Positions 4,899 through 37,121 of a stretch of DNA of 40,667 nt are shown here, in pieces (the first letter of the stretch is position 1; each line of letters starts with the position of its first letter). Under the pieces are notes generated by a model, which had not been told where the DNA came from, did no database searches, and worked only from the letters and a program-made list of their open reading frames with translations. The position numbers were made by a program, and so were the translations under genes. The stretch comes from an uncultured Roseburia sp. GTDB taxonomy: Bacteria; Bacillota; Clostridia; Lachnospirales; Lachnospiraceae. The stretch is from NCBI GenBank assembly GCA_947567625.1, contig CANONN010000031.1, forward strand, positions 1 to 40,667, given 5' to 3'.

Positions 4899-4926
4899 TG
4901 TGAGAAGAACTAGAAATGGAGGAAAA

Positions 4927-5044
4927 GATTGAACATTTAATTTTCAATCTGCAAGTTTGTGTCTGTGCGGCATCCACAAACTTGTTCATGCGCATAGTCT
5001 CAGCAAAGCTGAGCCTTTAAAGCCGCGCAGAAATGAGGAAAACG
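4927..5044 (+). promoter_or_regulatory. Structured leader, copy C (before transaldolase): hairpins plus pseudoknot
   Basis: Hairpin 1 pairs 4927-4933 with 4943-4949. Hairpin 2 is a perfect 10-bp stem, 4952-4961 with 4975-4984. Its loop segment CTGTGCGG (4963-4970) can pair over 8 bp, one of them G-U, with CCGCGCAG (5023-5030), which ends 4 nt before the GAGG ribosome site at 5035-5038. An extra 6-bp hairpin (4999-5013) is inserted between. The same architecture recurs at 5937 and 24978 with different stem sequences. Function unknown; translational control is a plausible inference. Confidence 0.6.
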
Positions 5045-5698
5045 ATGAAATTTTTTATTGATACTGCAAATGTAGAAGACATCCGCAAAGCAAACGACAT
5101 GGGCGTAATCTGCGGCGTAACAACCAATCCATCCCTGATTGCCAAAGAGGGCAGGGATTTTAATGAGGTCATCAAGGAGATCACGACGATCGTCGACGGC
5201 CCGATCAGCGGTGAGGTAAAGGCCACCACGGTAGATGCGGAGGGGATGATCAAAGAGGGAAGAGAGATCGCCGCCATCCATTCCAATATGGTAGTAAAAA
5301 TTCCCATGACAGTGGAGGGCTTAAAGGCGGTGAAGGTGCTCGCCAAAGAGGGCATTAAGACAAATGTGACGCTTATTTTTTCCGCAAACCAGGCGCTGCT
5401 TGCGGCGAGAGCGGGAGCGACGTATGTGTCGCCTTTCCTTGGCAGATTAGACGATATCAATATGACGGGCGTTGACCTGATCGAAGATATCGTGCAGATT
5501 TTTGAAAACTACGGGCTCGAGACGGAGATCATTGCGGCCTCCATCCGCAATCCCATCCATGTGACGGACTGTGCGCTCGCCGGCGCTCACATTGCAACGG
5601 TGCCATACAAGGTCATCGAGCAGATGACAAAGCATCCGCTTACGGACGCGGGGATTGAAAAGTTCCAGGCGGACTATAAAGCTGTATTTGGAGAATAG
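5045..5698 (+). CDS. Transaldolase / fructose-6-phosphate aldolase (TalC/FSA type)
   Basis: A short, 217-residue transaldolase of the decameric FSA/TalC family. The N-terminus [14 protein letters not shown] and the segment [13 protein letters not shown] are characteristic, and K85 (in NMVVKIPMT) falls at the position of the Schiff-base lysine of E. coli FSA (K85). Proteins annotated this way in Firmicutes generally act as transaldolases in the non-oxidative pentose phosphate pathway, which the neighbouring transketolase supports. An in-frame ATG at 5033 exists, but ATG 5045 has GAGG at 5035-5038 with a 6-nt gap and gives the canonical N-terminus, so it is chosen. The gene follows leader copy C, and its stop codon overlaps a long hairpin. 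Confidence 0.92.
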
Positions 5699-5734
5699 TG
5701 TGAAAAATCAGCTTGATAGCTGATTTTATCACAC
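5698..5734 (+). terminator. 16-bp hairpin overlapping the transaldolase stop codon
   Basis: Outer arms GTGTGA (5698-5703) and TCACAC (5729-5734) and inner arms 5704-5713 with 5718-5727 form a near-continuous stem with one bulged A (5728) and a TGAT loop. No U-run follows. It may act as a processing or 3'-stability element within the operon rather than a terminator. Confidence 0.45.
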
Positions 5735-5749
5735 GTGAACTTGTTCACG
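5734..5749 (+). repeat. Short perfect hairpin CGTGAA-CTTG-TTCACG
   Basis: A 6-bp stem with a CTTG loop directly abuts the preceding hairpin. A second hairpin with the same loop and the same inner GAA/TTC pairs lies at 5793-5808, suggesting a small repeated structural unit. Confidence 0.5.
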
Positions 5750-5763
5750 TTGGCTATATTGTG

Positions 5764-5856
5764 CTGGAGCGTTACAAATAGCACGGATGGCGCACGAACT
5801 TGTTCGTGATACGCAATATTTGAGATTTGCGTCGCCCTGTCGCGCAAACGCTCCAG
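5764..5856 (+). ncRNA. Candidate structured RNA: nested three-way junction
   Basis: P1 is a perfect 10-bp helix, 5764-5773 with 5847-5856. Inside it P2 (GGCG 5789-5792 with CGCC 5833-5836) directly encloses P3 (5793-5798 with 5803-5808, loop CTTG) and P4 (5811-5816 with 5827-5832), with only 2 unpaired nt in the junction. No coding capacity was recognised. It sits between the transaldolase and transketolase genes, so it is probably transcribed. It is not a family I can name; a palindromic repeat element is the main alternative. Confidence 0.45.
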
Positions 5857-5936
5857 AATGAAGAATAGTGTGAGAAGAACGCCTTTATTGTGTTTTGATG
5901 AAAAGAAATGCCGCTTACGCGGCGGAATGTGAGGAA

Positions 5937-6034
5937 GATTGAAAATTAAAATTTTCAATCACGAGATTTGTGTCTGCGCGTTGCTTGCCACAAACTCGAT
6001 ATGCGCAAAAAGCAGCGCAGAAATGGAGAAAATT
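5937..6034 (+). promoter_or_regulatory. Structured leader, copy A (before transketolase)
   Basis: Hairpin 1 is a perfect 10-bp stem, 5937-5946 with 5951-5960. Hairpin 2 pairs 5962-5972 with 5989-5998, with A5966 bulged. Its loop CTGCGC (5974-5979) and TGCT (5982-5985) can pair with GCGCAG (6015-6020) and AGCA (6011-6014), a 10-bp pseudoknot with a 2-nt bulge. The 3' strand ends 5 nt before the GGAGA ribosome site (6026-6030 region). The loop and 3' strand are nearly identical to copy B at 24978 while the stems differ in a compensatory way. Confidence 0.6.
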
Positions 6035-6871
6035 ATGACGAATTTAGAACTTCAGAAAATCGCTGTCGAAGTTCGCAGAGGCATTATCGACGGGGTGCAC
6101 AGTGCGAAAGCCGGTCATCCGGGCGGTTCCCTTTCTGCGGCAGAGATTTTTACTTACCTTTACTTTGAAGAGATGAATATCGACCCCAAAAATCCAAAAG
6201 ATCCCGACCGTGACCGTTTTGTTTTGTCAAAGGGACATACCGCGCCGGGGCTCTATTCTACACTGGCAAACCGGGGCTATTTTCCGGTGGAAGATCTGCT
6301 GACGCTGCGCCATACCGGCTCCTATTTGCAGGGCCATCCCGACATGAAGCATATACCGGGTGTCGATATGTCCTCCGGTTCGCTCGGACAGGGCGTGTCC
6401 GCCGCCTGCGGCATGGCACTGGCCGGAAAGCTAAACGGCAGGGATTACCGTGTCTATGCGCTCTGCGGCGACGGTGAGATTGAGGAGGGACAGATCTGGG
6501 AGGCCGCTATGTTTGCGGGTTTTCGCAAGCTGGACAACCTTTGTGTGATCGTGGACAACAATAATCTGCAGATCGACGGGCCGATCGATAAGGTGTGTTC
6601 TCCCTATCCGATTGACAAGAAGTTTGAGAGTTTTAATTTCCATGTCATAAGTATCAACGGCAATGATTTCGACGAGCTGCGCAGTGCCTTTGCGGAAGCG
6701 AAAGCCACAAAGGGGATGCCGACGGCGATTGTTGCCCGCACCTTAAAGGGCAAGGATATCTCTTTCATGGAGAACAGCGTCGACTGGCACGGCAAGGCGC
6801 CGAACGATGAAGAGTACGCAGTCGCAGTCGAGGATTTGAGAAAGGTAGGTGAGGCGTTATGTCAGAATTAA
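6035..6871 (+). CDS. tktA: Transketolase, N-terminal (TPP-binding) subunit
   Basis: This 278-residue protein is the N-terminal half of a split transketolase, as is usual in many clostridia. It carries the thiamine-diphosphate motif GDGEIEEGQ, ending in NNNLQIDG, and the early SAKAGHPGGSLSAAE and FVLSKGHTAPGLY segments. It transfers two-carbon units between pentose and triose/tetrose phosphates together with the next gene product. An in-frame ATG at 6023 would place the ribosome site inside the gene; ATG 6035 with GGAG just upstream gives a normal N-terminus and is preferred. The last 13 bases overlap the next gene, indicating translational coupling. It is preceded by structured leader A. Confidence 0.93.
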   Translation: MTNLELQKIAVEVRRGIIDGVHSAKAGHPGGSLSAAEIFTYLYFEEMNIDPKNPKDPDRDRFVLSKGHTAPGLYSTLANRGYFPVEDLLTLRHTGSYLQGHPDMKHIPGVDMSSGSLGQGVSAACGMALAGKLNGRDYRVYALCGDGEIEEGQIWEAAMFAGFRKLDNLCVIVDNNNLQIDGPIDKVCSPYPIDKKFESFNFHVISINGNDFDELRSAFAEAKATKGMPTAIVARTLKGKDISFMENSVDWHGKAPNDEEYAVAVEDLRKVGEALCQN

Positions 6872-24977: not shown

Positions 24978-25074
24978 GTGTGAAAAATAAATTTTTCACA
25001 CGGCGCTTTGTGTCTGCGCGTTGCTTGCCACAAAGTCGCTTATGCGCAAAAGCAGCGCAGAAATGGGGATTTCT
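24978..25074 (+). promoter_or_regulatory. Structured leader, copy B (before the recombinase-module small protein)
   Basis: Hairpin 1 is an 11-bp stem, 24978-24988 with 24991-25001. Hairpin 2 pairs 25003-25012 with 25029-25039 (one bulge). Its loop, identical to that of copy A, can pair (25014-25019 and 25022-25025) with 25051-25060, just before GGGGA and ATG 25075. The loop and 3' strand match copy A while the lower stems are changed on both sides, which is compensatory variation. Confidence 0.6.
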
Positions 25075-25366: not shown

Positions 25367-25515
25367 ATAGAATATGAGAGCGGAAGGATTCTGATCTTTC
25401 TTCTGTATCCCATATGGTCAATGAAGCGGCTTAGCCAGCCGTCCGGGAAAACTGCCAGAAACAAATGTCCGCAAAACATGCAACCATATCCAAAAAACAT
25501 GCAGGGAGGTTTGTT

Positions 25516-27183
25516 ATGGCCGTTTATGAGAAACAATCTTTTGCCCCGGAAGAATATAGGGCAATGGCATACTATCGTTTGTCTAAGGATGACAAAAATG
25601 AGGATAGAGGCAGAGATCGCGAAGGCAGGGTCAGCGACAGTATCTTAAACCAGCGAAAACTGGTTCATGCCTATTTGAAGAGCCATCCGGGGATTACTCT
25701 GGTGGATGAAGCCTATGATGACGGTTATTCCGGAACGAACTATGATCGTCCCGGTTTTCGCTCTGTACTCGAAAAGGTTCAGTCGGGGAGCATTAACTGT
25801 GTCATCGTAAAAGATTTGTCCCGGCTGGGAAGAGAATATATTGAGACGGGAAAATATCTTGAGATGATCTTCCCGTCTTTTGGCGTGCGCTTTATTGCCA
25901 TCAACGATGATGTTGACAGTGAACACAGCACGGCGGGGGATGATCTGATCATTCCCATTAAAAACATAATGAATGAGTCCTATTGCCGTGAATTGTCAAG
26001 AAAGCTTAGGAATCAGTTTCGGATTCAGCGCGGCAACGGAGAATTTTTGGGTGCTTTTGCGAGCTACGGGTACTGCAAATCTCCCGACGATAAGCATAAG
26101 CTGATCGTCGATGAGTATGCGGCCGAAGTTGTGCGGGGCATTTTTTCGTTGAAAATGAAGGGATATAGTCAAAACGGGATTGCTGATTTTTTAAATCGTG
26201 AACAGGTGCTGCCGCCTTCAGAGTATAAAAAAAGCCTTGGCATGAACTATAAAACCGGATTTCGGACAGCCGCACAGCCAAAATGGAGTGTCGTGACGCT
26301 GAACCGGATTTTGACAAATCCCCTTTATATCGGCACCCTGATTCAGGGAAAACGGGGAACGCCGAACTATAAAATAAAAAAAATGCGCATGCGCAGTGAG
26401 GAGGATTGGGTTGTGGCTGCGCACAATCATCCGGCCATTATCGATCCGCAAATCTTTGCTGTCGTGCAGAAAATGATGGAGCGGGATACCAGGCGGCCGC
26501 CGCACAGGGAAGTCCTGCTGCCGTTGGCCGGAATACTTTTTTGCGCGGACTGCGGACGATCGTTGCTGCGCAGAACTGTGACGAGAGGGGAACAGAAATA
26601 TTGTTACTATGTGTGCGCGGGTTATAAAAAGGGCGAAGGTTGCAGCAGTCACAGCTTTGAGCAAAAGAAACTGGAGGAAACGGTCTTACATGCCTTAACC
26701 CAGCAAATACGCGTGGTTGTGGAATTAGAGCAGCTTGCCGTGGAAATCGGACGCAATAAGATCGATCGGATTCGTCAGGAGCGCATGGATGTCAGGATTG
26801 CCAAGAAAGAGCAGGATTTAGACCGTGATAAGGAATTTCGCTTGAAGCTGTATGAGGCATTGCATGACGGCCTGATCGACCGGGAGGAGTACGATAAAAT
26901 GCGCAGCCGATATACACAACAAATCGAAGACACACAAAAGGCCATTGATAAACTGCGGCTCGCGCGCGAGGAGATCACCTTGGGCAGTGGGGCGGATCAC
27001 AACTGGGTTTTGCAGTTTATCAAGTATGAGGGCATTACTAAACTGACCCGCGAGGCTGTGGTGACTTTGGTTGATCGTATCTATGTATATGAGGACAGGC
27101 ATATCCGCATTGAATTCAATTACCGCGACGAAATCGCCGCATATCAGGAGATTTTGCAGGCAAAAGCAAAGGAGGTGGGGTGA
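25516..27183 (+). CDS. Large serine recombinase 1
   Basis: A 555-residue site-specific recombinase. The resolvase-type catalytic domain has the nucleophile S23 in AYYRLSKDD, then DDGYSGTNYDRPGF and VKDLSRLGREYIETGKYLE. The recombinase domain follows (YGYCKSPDD through the ILTNPLYIG segment). A zinc ribbon comes next (CADCG, later YYVCAGY and GC), then a coiled-coil (about residues 410-490) as in integrases of the phiC31/TnpX class. ATG 25516 with GGGAGG 25503-25508 is chosen over the upstream in-frame ATG 25465, which lacks a ribosome site. Its stop is immediately followed by the start of recombinase 2. Confidence 0.92.
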   Translation: MAVYEKQSFAPEEYRAMAYYRLSKDDKNEDRGRDREGRVSDSILNQRKLVHAYLKSHPGITLVDEAYDDGYSGTNYDRPGFRSVLEKVQSGSINCVIVKDLSRLGREYIETGKYLEMIFPSFGVRFIAINDDVDSEHSTAGDDLIIPIKNIMNESYCRELSRKLRNQFRIQRGNGEFLGAFASYGYCKSPDDKHKLIVDEYAAEVVRGIFSLKMKGYSQNGIADFLNREQVLPPSEYKKSLGMNYKTGFRTAAQPKWSVVTLNRILTNPLYIGTLIQGKRGTPNYKIKKMRMRSEEDWVVAAHNHPAIIDPQIFAVVQKMMERDTRRPPHREVLLPLAGILFCADCGRSLLRRTVTRGEQKYCYYVCAGYKKGEGCSSHSFEQKKLEETVLHALTQQIRVVVELEQLAVEIGRNKIDRIRQERMDVRIAKKEQDLDRDKEFRLKLYEALHDGLIDREEYDKMRSRYTQQIEDTQKAIDKLRLAREEITLGSGADHNWVLQFIKYEGITKLTREAVVTLVDRIYVYEDRHIRIEFNYRDEIAAYQEILQAKAKEVG

Positions 27184-28893
27184 GTGGCGCGCAAGAGCAG
27201 AGCAAGGCTCTTCAACGAAGCCCCCAAAAAGGGGGACACGCCGGTACTTGCCGGGGAATACGGTCGTCTGTCCGTGGAGGATGGCGATGATATGGAGCAA
27301 AATTCCATCGGCAATCAGCAAAAAATCGCTCTGCACCATCTAGAGCAGCATCCCGAAATCAAGTTAGTGGACACATATTACGATAACGGGTATACGGGAA
27401 TGAACTATGAGCGCCCCGGCTTTCTGCGGATGTTCCAAGATTTAAAAAGCGGACGTATCAACTGTGTCATCGTGAAGGATATTTCCAGGCTGGGTCGTCA
27501 TTTTGTCGAGACCAGCGAACTGGTGGAGCGGACATTGCCGCAGATGGGGGTCAGGCTGATCTGTATTAACGATTGCTATGACAGTGCGGATGAGAACGCA
27601 GATGCCCTGGCCCTGACGATGCCCTTAAAGATGGTCATGAACGACTATTATGTAAAGGATATCTCCCATAAAATACGTTCGAGCATATCCGCGAAAATGG
27701 CAGAGGGCGAATTCCTGCCGGCGGCAGGCAGTGTTCCCTATGGGTACATCAGAAATCCACAGCGCATGACCTACGATATGGATGCGGAGGCGGCCGCGGT
27801 GGTTAGGCAGATTTATGAGCAAAGAGCCGATGGAGCAAGCTTTCATGCGATTGCCCGCCTATTAAACGAACATCATATCCCCTCGCCGGGCAAGCTGAAA
27901 TTCCTGCGGGGGACGACGAACGCGAAAAAGTACGAAAATGCGCTCTGGGTTCGCGGGACCGTACGCAAAATCTGTACCGACCAGGTCTATATCGGAAACC
28001 GGGTACACGGCAAATTAAAACGGGACAAAGTCGGCCAGGAGAAAAAGAAACGGAGCGAAGCGGAGTGGAAGGTAATGGAGTATGCGCACCCGCCGATCGT
28101 TTCCATGGCGCTGTATGAACAGGTGCAGCGGATAAACCGGGAGGAAGCCCAGCGCAGAGACGGCTACAGAACGAGGCCGGGGTGCGGTGACGATTACAGA
28201 GATTTGCTGCGCGGCATGGTGTTTTGCGCCGAGTGCAAAAGTCTCATGAGCCCGGCAAAGGGCTGTGCCAGGGCGGGGGCGAAGACGCAAAGCCGCATCT
28301 ACTATGATTGCAACGGATACCGGTATTTTGCGGATACACGGTGTTGCAGCCATTCGATCAGGCAGGAAACCTTGATGCAGGCGTTGAGCGACACGTTAAA
28401 CCAGCAGGTGCGGGCGGCGGTGGATGTTGGGCAGCTTGCGAAAAGCCTTGATACCATGCCCGGGGCAGTCTTTTACCAGAGCGAGGCCAAGCGCCGCTAT
28501 GTCAGTATTTCCACGAAACGCAGGCACATCGAGGCCAGGATGGAACAGCTTTTGACCGATCTTGCACAGCGAGTGATTGACCGCAGGGAATATGACGATA
28601 TCAAAAAACAGTATGCGAAAAAATATGACGAGCTGCTGCAGGAGGAAACGAGAGCGCTGTCTGATCTGAGGGCGAAAGATGCCGCTCTTAGTATCACCCA
28701 AAAATGGCTGGACGCGGTCAAAAGATACCAGAAGCTTCCGTCCATCGACCGCGGGCTTTTGGAATTGCTGGTGGAGCGCATAGAAGTCTCCAAAGACGGC
28801 ACCATCAGGATTGTACTCCGTTACGACGATCCGTATCGCCCAATAGCAGAATATCTTGAAAGAATCGAGGCGAACCGGGATGGCAGATTCTAA
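27184..28893 (+). CDS. Large serine recombinase 2
   Basis: A 569-residue large serine recombinase, clearly different in sequence from its neighbours. The catalytic serine is S30 in EYGRLSVED; DNGYTGMNYERPGF and VKDISRLGRHFVETSE complete the resolvase domain. A recombinase domain, a zinc-ribbon-like Cys set (CAECKS, later YYDCNGYRYF and RCC) and a coiled-coil follow. The start is GTG 27184, directly abutting the previous stop, with AAGGAGGTG inside the end of recombinase 1. The arrangement implies fixed stoichiometry with recombinase 1. Confidence 0.92.
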   Translation: MARKSRARLFNEAPKKGDTPVLAGEYGRLSVEDGDDMEQNSIGNQQKIALHHLEQHPEIKLVDTYYDNGYTGMNYERPGFLRMFQDLKSGRINCVIVKDISRLGRHFVETSELVERTLPQMGVRLICINDCYDSADENADALALTMPLKMVMNDYYVKDISHKIRSSISAKMAEGEFLPAAGSVPYGYIRNPQRMTYDMDAEAAAVVRQIYEQRADGASFHAIARLLNEHHIPSPGKLKFLRGTTNAKKYENALWVRGTVRKICTDQVYIGNRVHGKLKRDKVGQEKKKRSEAEWKVMEYAHPPIVSMALYEQVQRINREEAQRRDGYRTRPGCGDDYRDLLRGMVFCAECKSLMSPAKGCARAGAKTQSRIYYDCNGYRYFADTRCCSHSIRQETLMQALSDTLNQQVRAAVDVGQLAKSLDTMPGAVFYQSEAKRRYVSISTKRRHIEARMEQLLTDLAQRVIDRREYDDIKKQYAKKYDELLQEETRALSDLRAKDAALSITQKWLDAVKRYQKLPSIDRGLLELLVERIEVSKDGTIRIVLRYDDPYRPIAEYLERIEANRDGRF

Positions 28894-30487
28894 GCGGGAT
28901 ATATACTATCTGCGGCTTTCCAAGGAGGACGGAGACAGCGAGCAGGGGACTTTGGAGGAGAGCTGTAGTATCACTTCCCAGAGGGAATGTATCAGACGGT
29001 ATTTGCAGGAGCACGGCTTTGCCGAGGAAGATTTCGAGGAAATCGTGGATGACGGCTACAGCGGCACCAGTATGAACCGACCCGGGATGACGCGTCTTTT
29101 GCACCTGGTGGAAGAGGGCAGCGTGCGGACGATCATTGTGCGCGATCTGTCCCGATTTGCCCGCAATTATCTGGAGGCCGGCCATTATCTTGAATTTGTA
29201 TTTCCGGCCCGCGGCGTGCGCTTCGTCTCGATTCATGACCAGTTTGACAGCGGGCGGCTGGGAGAAAATACAGGCGGCCTGGAGCTGGCGGTGAAGAATC
29301 TGCTAAATCAGATGTACAGCAAAGATCTCTCGCAAAAGATCAAAAGCTCCGTGGACTTAAAAAAAATGAACGGCGAATATGTTTACGGAACGGCGCCCTA
29401 CGGCTACAAAAAGGGTCCGGGGAAGAATACGATTGTCATAGACGAGGAAGCGGCCGTGACCGTGCGGGCAATTTTTACCTGGGCAGCCGAGGGCAAAACG
29501 ATTACGCAGATTGCCAGAACGCTCAATGAACAAAAGATTGCGACGCCGTCGGTCTATCTGGCGGCGGTGAGAGGCAACTATAAGACGAGAGCGGTCTGGA
29601 CTTTTGATTCGGTCCGCAATATTTTAGCCAACCGCATCTATACGGGGGACACCGTGCCCTTTAAATCGCATGTGCGCCGTGTCGGCAGTAACCGCGTCAG
29701 GCAGATACCGGAAGAATTGTGGCAGGTGATTCCCGATACCCATGAGGCGATTATCACCCGCGAGCTTTTCTATAAAGCCAAAATGGTGGTGAGGGCGAAA
29801 AAAAAATCAAAATCCTGCGCGCCGCCCAATCCGTTTACTTCTTTTTTGGTTTGCGGCTGCTGCGGGAACCGCCTGTCGAAAGGTAAAACGAGTAACAAGA
29901 ACTGGATGTGCGTCACGCACAGATACCATCCTGCCCTGGAATGTCGGGCGGTTCGCTTTCAGGAAGACCTGCTGACAGAGATCGTACTTCGTGAGATCAA
30001 TATCCGCTGTAAACTGCTGGATGCAAAAATAAAAAAGATAAAGCAAGAGAGCCGTTTCGCGAAGACAAAAGAGGAGAACCTGCAGACGCAATGCCGGAAC
30101 CTGCGCAGGCAGATTGAGAGCATACAGGCGTCAAAAATGCAGTATTATGAGGCGTACGTCAGCGGAGAACTCACAAAGGATGCGTTTCTCGCAAGAAAAC
30201 AGGAAGCAGCGGCACAGGAGAAAAAGCTTGGCGAAGAACTCCTTCGGGCGGAACGCGAGCAAAAAGAGCTGGTTCTTGTCATGAAAAGTGAGGCCGCGCA
30301 TATGGAAGCCGCGCGCAAAATCATGGAAGATCAAGAGATTACCGAGCTGACGCCAAATCTTATGAGAGAGCTGGTGAAGAAAATTATAGTCTATCCGGGC
30401 GGCTCTCTGCGCATAGAATGGAATTTCTGCGATGAGATAAGCGGGCCGGTTCCCCTGGAAAGCGGTATCGCAGCCAAAGAACCGTAA
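28880..30487 (+). CDS. Large serine recombinase 3
   Basis: A 535-residue large serine recombinase. The catalytic serine is S14 in YYLRLSKED; DDGYSGTSMNRPGM and VRDLSRFARNYLEAGHYLE follow. The zinc ribbon is CGCCGNRLSKG with later WMCVTHRYHPALEC, and a long coiled-coil lies near residues 370-480. ATG 28880 overlaps the end of recombinase 2 by 14 bp with GAGG 28867-28870; an upstream TTG at 28856 is less likely. The gene ends about 30 bp before the spoIVB fragment, the usual position of an integrase next to its attachment site. Confidence 0.92.
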   Translation: MADSKRDIYYLRLSKEDGDSEQGTLEESCSITSQRECIRRYLQEHGFAEEDFEEIVDDGYSGTSMNRPGMTRLLHLVEEGSVRTIIVRDLSRFARNYLEAGHYLEFVFPARGVRFVSIHDQFDSGRLGENTGGLELAVKNLLNQMYSKDLSQKIKSSVDLKKMNGEYVYGTAPYGYKKGPGKNTIVIDEEAAVTVRAIFTWAAEGKTITQIARTLNEQKIATPSVYLAAVRGNYKTRAVWTFDSVRNILANRIYTGDTVPFKSHVRRVGSNRVRQIPEELWQVIPDTHEAIITRELFYKAKMVVRAKKKSKSCAPPNPFTSFLVCGCCGNRLSKGKTSNKNWMCVTHRYHPALECRAVRFQEDLLTEIVLREINIRCKLLDAKIKKIKQESRFAKTKEENLQTQCRNLRRQIESIQASKMQYYEAYVSGELTKDAFLARKQEAAAQEKKLGEELLRAEREQKELVLVMKSEAAHMEAARKIMEDQEITELTPNLMRELVKKIIVYPGGSLRIEWNFCDEISGPVPLESGIAAKEP

Positions 30488-37040: not shown

Positions 37041-37121
37041 GATACTTAAGCAGCAAGTATCGCGCCGCATGCTTTATATGGCAACGCGGCGTAGAATAGC
37101 AGCGCAGGAATGGAGAGAATT
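37041..37121 (+). promoter_or_regulatory. Divergent structured leader, copy D (before spo0A)
   Basis: Hairpin 1 pairs 37041-37047 with 37055-37061 and hairpin 2 pairs 37063-37068 with 37086-37091. The 3' end, AGCAGCGCAG followed by GAATGGAGA and AATT-ATG, closely matches copy A. The loop-to-tail pseudoknot is weak here (TGCT 37070-37073 with AGCA 37098-37101), so membership in the family is less certain. Confidence 0.4.

Follow-up and report, generated by a model that had tools for sequence, protein, structure and literature searches.

A small dispersed leader that probably inserts between the Shine-Dalgarno sequence and the start codon in Lachnospiraceae

Introduction

Among the literature searched, the nearest idea to the leaders described here is that of the TAACTGA direct repeats of Beggiatoaceae. 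Many copies of these repeats lie just upstream of the start codons of unrelated and partly essential genes, and both a translational role and mobile spread have been discussed for them (PMC4679880). They are heptamers with little Shine-Dalgarno (SD) character and overlap the place where the ribosome site would be expected (PMC4679880), whereas the present element is a structured leader with an SD of its own.

Other relatives are found among the small mobile repeats. As outlined in the main text of two reviews, bacterial MITEs and small mobile sequences are, like the present element, small, non-coding, dispersed, apparently non-autonomous and hairpin-forming (PMC2229807, PMC10969869). The present element differs from them in having hardly any terminal inverted repeat, no demonstrated target-site duplication and a placement in the spacer between SD and start codon, and the terms Shine-Dalgarno, start codon and ribosome binding are absent from the main text of both reviews. 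REP and REPIN sequences with their RAYT transposases are likewise dispersed palindromes in many copies (PMC2817692, PMC3116915, PMC8266576). The present element, in contrast, is a leader of several hairpins that lies at translation starts, and nine of twelve element-bearing genomes are without a match to the Y1 transposase family (PF01797). The pneumococcal BOX and RUP sequences share with it that they are small interspersed repeats of a Firmicute genome (PMC3049150). The present element is probably a variant of such small mobile repeats. Placement between an SD and a start codon, with an SD carried along, is to our knowledge no feature of BOX or RUP. The search covered the open literature, with subscription papers mostly outside it, and neither such an element nor the delivery of ribosome-binding sites by a dispersing sequence as a route of regulatory change was recognised there.

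The window, i.e. the whole analysed stretch of 40,667 nucleotides from an uncultured Roseburia sp., contains three such leaders. Each is probably a copy of a small mobile sequence which settles between the SD and the start codon of a gene and supplies a new SD.

Leaders in the window

The leaders were scored with R1, a covariance model built from 16 copies of the own genome (G000, a 3.42-Mb assembly). The features are as follows.

4927..5038, + strand: copy A, before the transaldolase gene (start codon 5045); R1 84.4 bits (seed copy)
4918..4922, + strand: displaced native SD (GGAGG) directly 5' of copy A; from the sequence and the anti-SD pairing of flanks
4927..4949, + strand: copy A, hairpin 1; from the fold and hairpin 1 covariation
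4952..4984, + strand: copy A, hairpin 2 (CAAGTTTGTG...CACAAACTTG); from the fold and covariation
4962..4971, + strand: copy A, pseudoknot strand in the hairpin-2 loop (TCTGTGCGGC), partner 5022-5031; from loop-tail covariation
5022..5031, + strand: copy A, pseudoknot 3' strand (GCCGCGCAGA); from the sequence and loop-tail covariation
5035..5038, + strand: copy A, element-borne SD (GAGG), 6 nt 5' of the ATG at 5045; from the sequence and spacing statistics
5937..6028, + strand: copy B, before the gene for the N-terminal part of transketolase (start 6035); R1 106.4 bits (seed copy)
5931..5934, + strand: displaced SD (GAGG) 5' of copy B; from the sequence and the anti-SD pairing of flanks
5973..5988, + strand: copy B, hairpin-2 loop including the pseudoknot strand; from the sequence and loop-tail covariation
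6012..6021, + strand: copy B, pseudoknot 3' strand (GCAGCGCAGA); from the sequence and loop-tail covariation
6025..6028, + strand: copy B, element-borne SD (GGAG); from the sequence
24978..25068, + strand: copy C (GTGTGA class), before a DUF6870 gene (start 25075), upstream of three serine recombinases; R1 95.5 bits (seed copy), Pfam
25013..25028, + strand: copy C, hairpin-2 loop including the pseudoknot strand; letters identical to copy B
25052..25061, + strand: copy C, pseudoknot 3' strand; letters identical to copy B
37099..37115, + strand: D, a tail-only relative with an SD, not a full copy, before spo0A (start 37122); exact tail-pattern match

An earlier note on this DNA had placed repeated leaders at A, B and C, and both the sequence and the R1 scores bear this out; the scores were obtained with filters off and all three copies belong to the 16 seeds of R1, so that they confirm the coordinates and nothing more. 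A fourth, weaker copy had been proposed before spo0A. This site, D, shares the 3' tail only: its exact tail GCAGCGCAGGAATGGAG stands 3' of two hairpins unlike those of A to C, and R1 gives it 11.9 bits (E 0.73). Against dinucleotide shuffles, the folding z-scores are -3.9 for A, -3.1 for B, -2.9 for C and -2.0 for D. The hairpin-2 loop is complementary to the 3' strand in A, B and C, as the note had it, and the 10 bp with a 2-nt bulge that it gave for B were found again. For A, to which it had assigned the same bulge, the 10 bp follow one another without a bulge and include one G-U; for C, for which it had counted 8 bp, the match is 10 bp with a 2-nt bulge, loop and tail being identical to those of B. 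Copy B is moreover identical across 92 nt to the copy in the glyS leader (G000:C61). None of the 4227 families of Rfam 15 matches a sequence overlapping A to D up to E 1, which agrees with the statement that no named RNA family is recognisable, and the genes 3' of A, B, C and D are as unrelated as had been supposed (by Pfam a transaldolase, the N-terminal part of a transketolase, a DUF6870 protein and Spo0A).

What the note had overlooked is the insertion: the leader appears, from its letters and its surroundings, to be an inserted, dispersing element with an SD of its own, lodged 3' of a displaced native SD and 5' of the start codon.

A leader peptide encoded by the element and read in frame with the gene is scarcely credible. 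An open reading frame (5939-6871) does run through copy B, from a TTG at 5939 into tkt, but A and C each have a stop in that frame, for which reason an in-frame leader peptide was rejected, and linker and insert lengths differ by non-multiples of three.

Copy number and dispersal

R1 finds 68 matches in the own genome at E ≤ 1, of which 53 reach E ≤ 0.001 (52 in a stricter search). The 17-nt tail pattern GCNGCGCAGRAATGRRG occurs 36 times with at most one mismatch, compared to 0 times for the reversed pattern, and GCAGAAATGRRG occurs 69 times, compared to 4 for its reversed control. Across their last 100 nt, twelve copies with a length of 125-126 nt share 98.9% identity (minimum 96%), whereas for their 60-nt flanks the values are 29% (upstream) and 27% (downstream). 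Near-identical copies with unrelated flanks argue for dispersal and not for the parallel evolution of leaders, in line with the earlier suggestion of a dispersed leader before unrelated genes; dispersed, near-identical non-coding copies are also what marks a MITE. When 70 distinct tail sites of the own genome were compared with full copies, 28 matched a full copy, 17 a 5'-shortened stretch and 24 little or nothing, and one gave no alignment.

Three own loci look unusual. One of the 53 matches (L103, G000:C89:173-253) resembles a tandem array and not a copy, a hairpin-1-like unit being repeated with GAGGGAGGAACAATG in between. In L004 (G000:C16:41441-41563), a single instance, hairpin 2 is partly inverted in appearance, with GCGCAGACACAAA replacing TTTGTGTCTGCGC. 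Three tandem units resembling TGCGCAAAAGCNGCGCAG lie 5' of a gene in L003 (G000:C11:47907-48016).

Position before start codons and the displaced SD

The tail of the element holds an SD sequence and usually ends 6 nt before the start codon. Forty-five of the 53 own copies precede an open reading frame of at least 60 aa, with a spacing from tail end to start codon of 6 nt in 40, 7 nt in three, 5 nt in one and 9 nt in one. Among 47 copies outside the own genome, the subset read of 87 matches, 26 stand at 6 nt, seven at 5 nt, three at 7 nt and five at other spacings; among 36 further copies, the subset read of 117 matches in G077, G083, G064 and G070, the spacing is 6 nt in 27 and different in six. 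Copies with no open reading frame of at least 60 aa downstream (8 of the 53, 6 of the 47 and 3 of the 36) count against the insertion reading. Exact tails behave alike: 66 of the 69 in the own genome precede an open reading frame of at least 60 aa and 60 do so at 5-7 nt, compared to 3.6% of random positions. In 12 of the 53 own copies, an open frame of 100 codons or more lies upstream and stops no further than 30 nt from the element.

Directly 5' of the left border, the sequence pairs strongly with the anti-SD. The mean energy is -9.33 kcal/mol for 41 own copies with an intact left end and -3.6 to -4.4 kcal/mol for windows 20-100 nt further up; the corresponding values are -7.71 versus -3.2 to -4.6 kcal/mol in control windows for 30 copies of relatives, and -9.44 versus -4.16 kcal/mol upstream for the 36 further copies. 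The element therefore has an old SD on its 5' side and the start codon on its 3' side. For three copies (G000:C53, G077 L337 and G077 L356) this old SD is the tail of another copy, i.e. the insertions are nested.

These observations suggest the following course of events. An element of roughly 80-140 nt would enter, in sense orientation, the A/T-rich spacer that separates the SD of a gene from its start codon. The SD that it carries, in most cases 6 nt ahead of that codon, would keep the gene translatable, while the old SD would be left stranded upstream. Translation would then begin at the SD of the element, and the folded body may shield or tune the new start site.

Another account holds that GCAGAAATGAGG is just a favoured SD neighbourhood in Lachnospiraceae and that the hairpins are incidental. 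Tail sites do occur before starts in several genera, and 20 genomes out of 200 from different genera have 10 matches or more, but the long near-identical bodies, the sharp left border, the empty sites and the covariation contradict this account for full copies, and it is very improbable for the element as such.

The chances are about even that the leaders belong to a new class of mobile elements adapted to translation starts. Such an element would target the spacer between SD and start codon, including the SDs of earlier copies; its self-folding module with an SD of its own would make insertion before essential genes tolerable, and over time it would have taken the place of the native SD in many genes across Lachnospiraceae. 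If the insertion reading is right, a dispersing sequence delivers and replaces the ribosome-binding sites of essential genes and its copies form a natural library of portable translation-initiation modules. The question is raised of what sets insertion at a fixed distance from the start codon.

Empty sites, polymorphic insertions and decay

G006 and G067, two genomes of the same genus with about 95% identity, have at least five insertion sites in common (BLAST). Four copies of G006 are missing from G067, of which three are clean insertions and one (L315) is 5'-truncated; the unshared site L334 of G067 had no counterpart that could be found in G006. Two of the clean insertions, at fabZ and at one other gene, lie between SD and start codon. 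The third lies upstream of alr, outside the SD-ATG spacer, and this position, like the truncation of L315, counts against the insertion reading. Runs of A flank all three clean insertions on both sides. As for target-site duplication, the left and right ends of 68 copies match no better than permuted ends. If the insertion reading is right, polymorphic insertions of this kind would let the effect of a leader on translation be measured directly.

Single genes were followed in other genomes of the same genus, with 29 loci for each gene. The glyS loci gave no R1 match up to E 1. Among the rpiB loci, a match (30.6 bits) was found in G032 only, in a shortened version: the element is full in G064 and internally deleted in its relative G032, where the SD is kept. 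The transaldolase loci gave a match of 27.8 bits in G023, away from the gene start, and, at the transaldolase start of G035, a sub-threshold one (16.5 bits, E 0.5), where the letters GCGCAGAAAGGGAG resemble the tail. By eye, the G032 tal leader can be aligned without gaps to the own tal leader as far as the ATG of G032, a further indication of the displaced SD 5' of copy A. Among the best 80 named transaldolase loci, one weak R1 match was found, not at the gene.

If only the SD is under strong selection after insertion, the body decays and the tail remains, as in the rpiB leader of G032. The GCAGAAATGRGG tails would in that case be fossils, left behind by decayed bodies while selection kept the SD; alternatively, tail-only sites could be convergent SD contexts.

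RNA structure

The structure was analysed in an alignment of 102 copies, 101 of them distinct, which came from 100 selected loci. In hairpins 1 and 2 pairing amounts to 95.8%, and 186 double changes were counted compared to 50 in shuffles; the seven-pair pseudoknot is 93.3% paired, compared to at most 70.4% when its strands are slid against each other. The covariation that the earlier note had seen in three copies recurs in a large set, in both hairpins and in the loop-tail pseudoknot. The pair counts of the pseudoknot are weaker: it has seven double changes versus 2.4 in shuffles (0 of 500 reach 7), but a partner shifted by +3 still gives six, and for two of the five measures 27 and 95 of 500 shuffles do at least as well. 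The case for it rests, as a consequence, on the percentage paired and on a permutation of loop-tail energies, a stronger test that takes in the variable extension of the pseudoknot. Between a loop and its own tail the pairing energy is -14.63 kcal/mol, with permuted tails it is -12.97 kcal/mol, and none of 5000 permutations (87 distinct) reaches the former value; this preference persists with one row per distinct tail (49 rows, 0 of 5000).

The linker can pair with the tail in an alternative hairpin 3, which is 92.4% paired and less supported than the pseudoknot, its own-tail preference being weak (reached by 260 of 5000 permutations, or by 145 of 5000 when each distinct tail is given a single row). 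The alignment (A3) was fitted to hairpins 1 to 3 and favours these in pair counts, while the pseudoknot was not fitted; since related copies are not independent, the shuffle counts overstate significance throughout.

The conserved fold invites a second reading, a translational regulon in which the pseudoknot is read by a protein, a small RNA or the ribosome and copies spread by recombination are kept for coordinate control. This reading is possible, clearly less probable than insertion of a mobile element and compatible with mobility. Covarying hairpins and pseudoknot speak for it, as does the position of the pseudoknot 3' strand a few nt from the SD, and the linker UGCGC, as an alternative partner of that strand, gives the leader a switch-like appearance. 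The downstream genes, however, are not those of one pathway, as would be expected of a metabolite riboswitch: ten of them, identified by NCBIfam, are valS, glmU, ilvN, deoC, fabF, thiC, glyS, rpiB, trpC and ybeY, several of which are essential. The sets of copies vary between genomes 5% apart. In eleven of twelve copies read in G077, and in copies of G035 and G079, the hairpin-2 loop is short and the pseudoknot strand is missing, but linker, tail and position are retained. Nor is the SD predicted to be more open than with shuffled bodies (0.486 versus 0.454, p 0.14), while the AUG is slightly more open (0.561 versus 0.500, p 0.007), both in nested folds without pseudoknot terms for 77 distinct copies. 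SD shielding by nested folding was accordingly discarded, being weak or none in these 77 copies. Regulation by an inserted element, including the global translational control that the earlier note had suggested, is possible also on the preferred reading, that of a mobile element which brings its own SD.

Ends and candidate movers

MITEs are bounded by terminal inverted repeats. In 39 own copies, the longest exact match between the left end and the reverse complement of the right end has a mean of 5.0 nt and a maximum of 7 nt, compared to 4.0 for shuffled ends.

Movement through an RNA is one conceivable route. A reverse transcriptase that starts, as for a retroposon, at the 3' end of an RNA copy on SD-like sequences would leave a constant 3' end and 5'-truncated copies. 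The 17 shortened sites among the 70 fit this route, three of them (C69, C39 and L384) being almost identical to full copies across the remaining stretch, and so does L315 as a truncated polymorphic insertion. Some of the 17 may, however, be decayed and not truncated; selection for the SD can explain why 3'-truncated copies are missing, and one such copy (C10) does exist. The reverse transcriptase family PF00078 is present in six of twelve element-bearing genomes and in six of twelve without an R1 match, and absent from G083 and G064, which carry 39 and 28 copies. Retroposon-like movement is an unlikely explanation.

The same low probability is given to single-strand DNA transposition of the hairpins by a Y1 transposase, as in REP or IS200/IS605-like sequences. 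The hairpin at the left end, the near absence of a terminal inverted repeat and the lack of a better than permuted match between the two ends are in keeping with it, but PF01797 is found in three of the twelve element-bearing genomes versus six of the twelve without an R1 match, and not in the own genome (some genomes being incomplete). Being no commoner in element-bearing genomes, neither the reverse transcriptase nor the Y1 transposase was retained as the mover.

Distribution across genomes and collections

At E ≤ 0.001, R1 matches 12 of 37 genomes of the same genus, the own included, and one of 24 genomes of other families; with laxer filters, it matches nine of 24 further genomes of the genus. 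The search with a covariance model that the earlier note had proposed as a check has in this way recovered the element in 21 of 61 genomes of the genus (own included). Six of 30 transaldolase loci of this genus equal named records, Roseburia faecis M72 among them, which places the genus in the Roseburia/Agathobacter group.

The tail reaches further. Of 200 Lachnospiraceae genomes from different genera, 20, with the own among them, have 10 or more matches to GCAGAAATGRRG, while its reversed control has at most six in any of the 200; one genome, G263 (10 versus 6), shows no clear excess. For 40 GCAGAAATGRRG sites in six other genera, picked from the places listed, an open reading frame starts at 5-7 nt in 30 and at 4 nt in four, and none was found in six. 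Four of these 40 sites have an R1 match at E ≤ 0.001, one of them strong (L409, 74 bits), which indicates that full bodies are rarer than tails in those genera.

Plasmids gave no match to the class of copy C, and a pattern scan of IMG/VR returned one contig. A phage collection contains 13 unverified fecal records named 'Bacteriophage sp.' (MT836374.1 to MT839492.1) with partial matches to the 126-nt class, and each of the six that were read has the element before an open reading frame. These scaffolds look like bacterial DNA.

Two further stretches of the window may be mentioned. Downstream of copy C, three consecutive large serine recombinases (Pfam) occupy 25465-30484. The palindrome-rich intergenic region 3' of the transaldolase gene (5704-5870) is perhaps a second dispersed repeat, also ending near an SD-like AATGGAG, and pieces of it recur elsewhere (GTGAACTTGTTCACGTTGGCTAT in L090 and AGATTTGCGTCGCCCTGTCGCGCAAACGCTCCAGAATG in the flank of L092).
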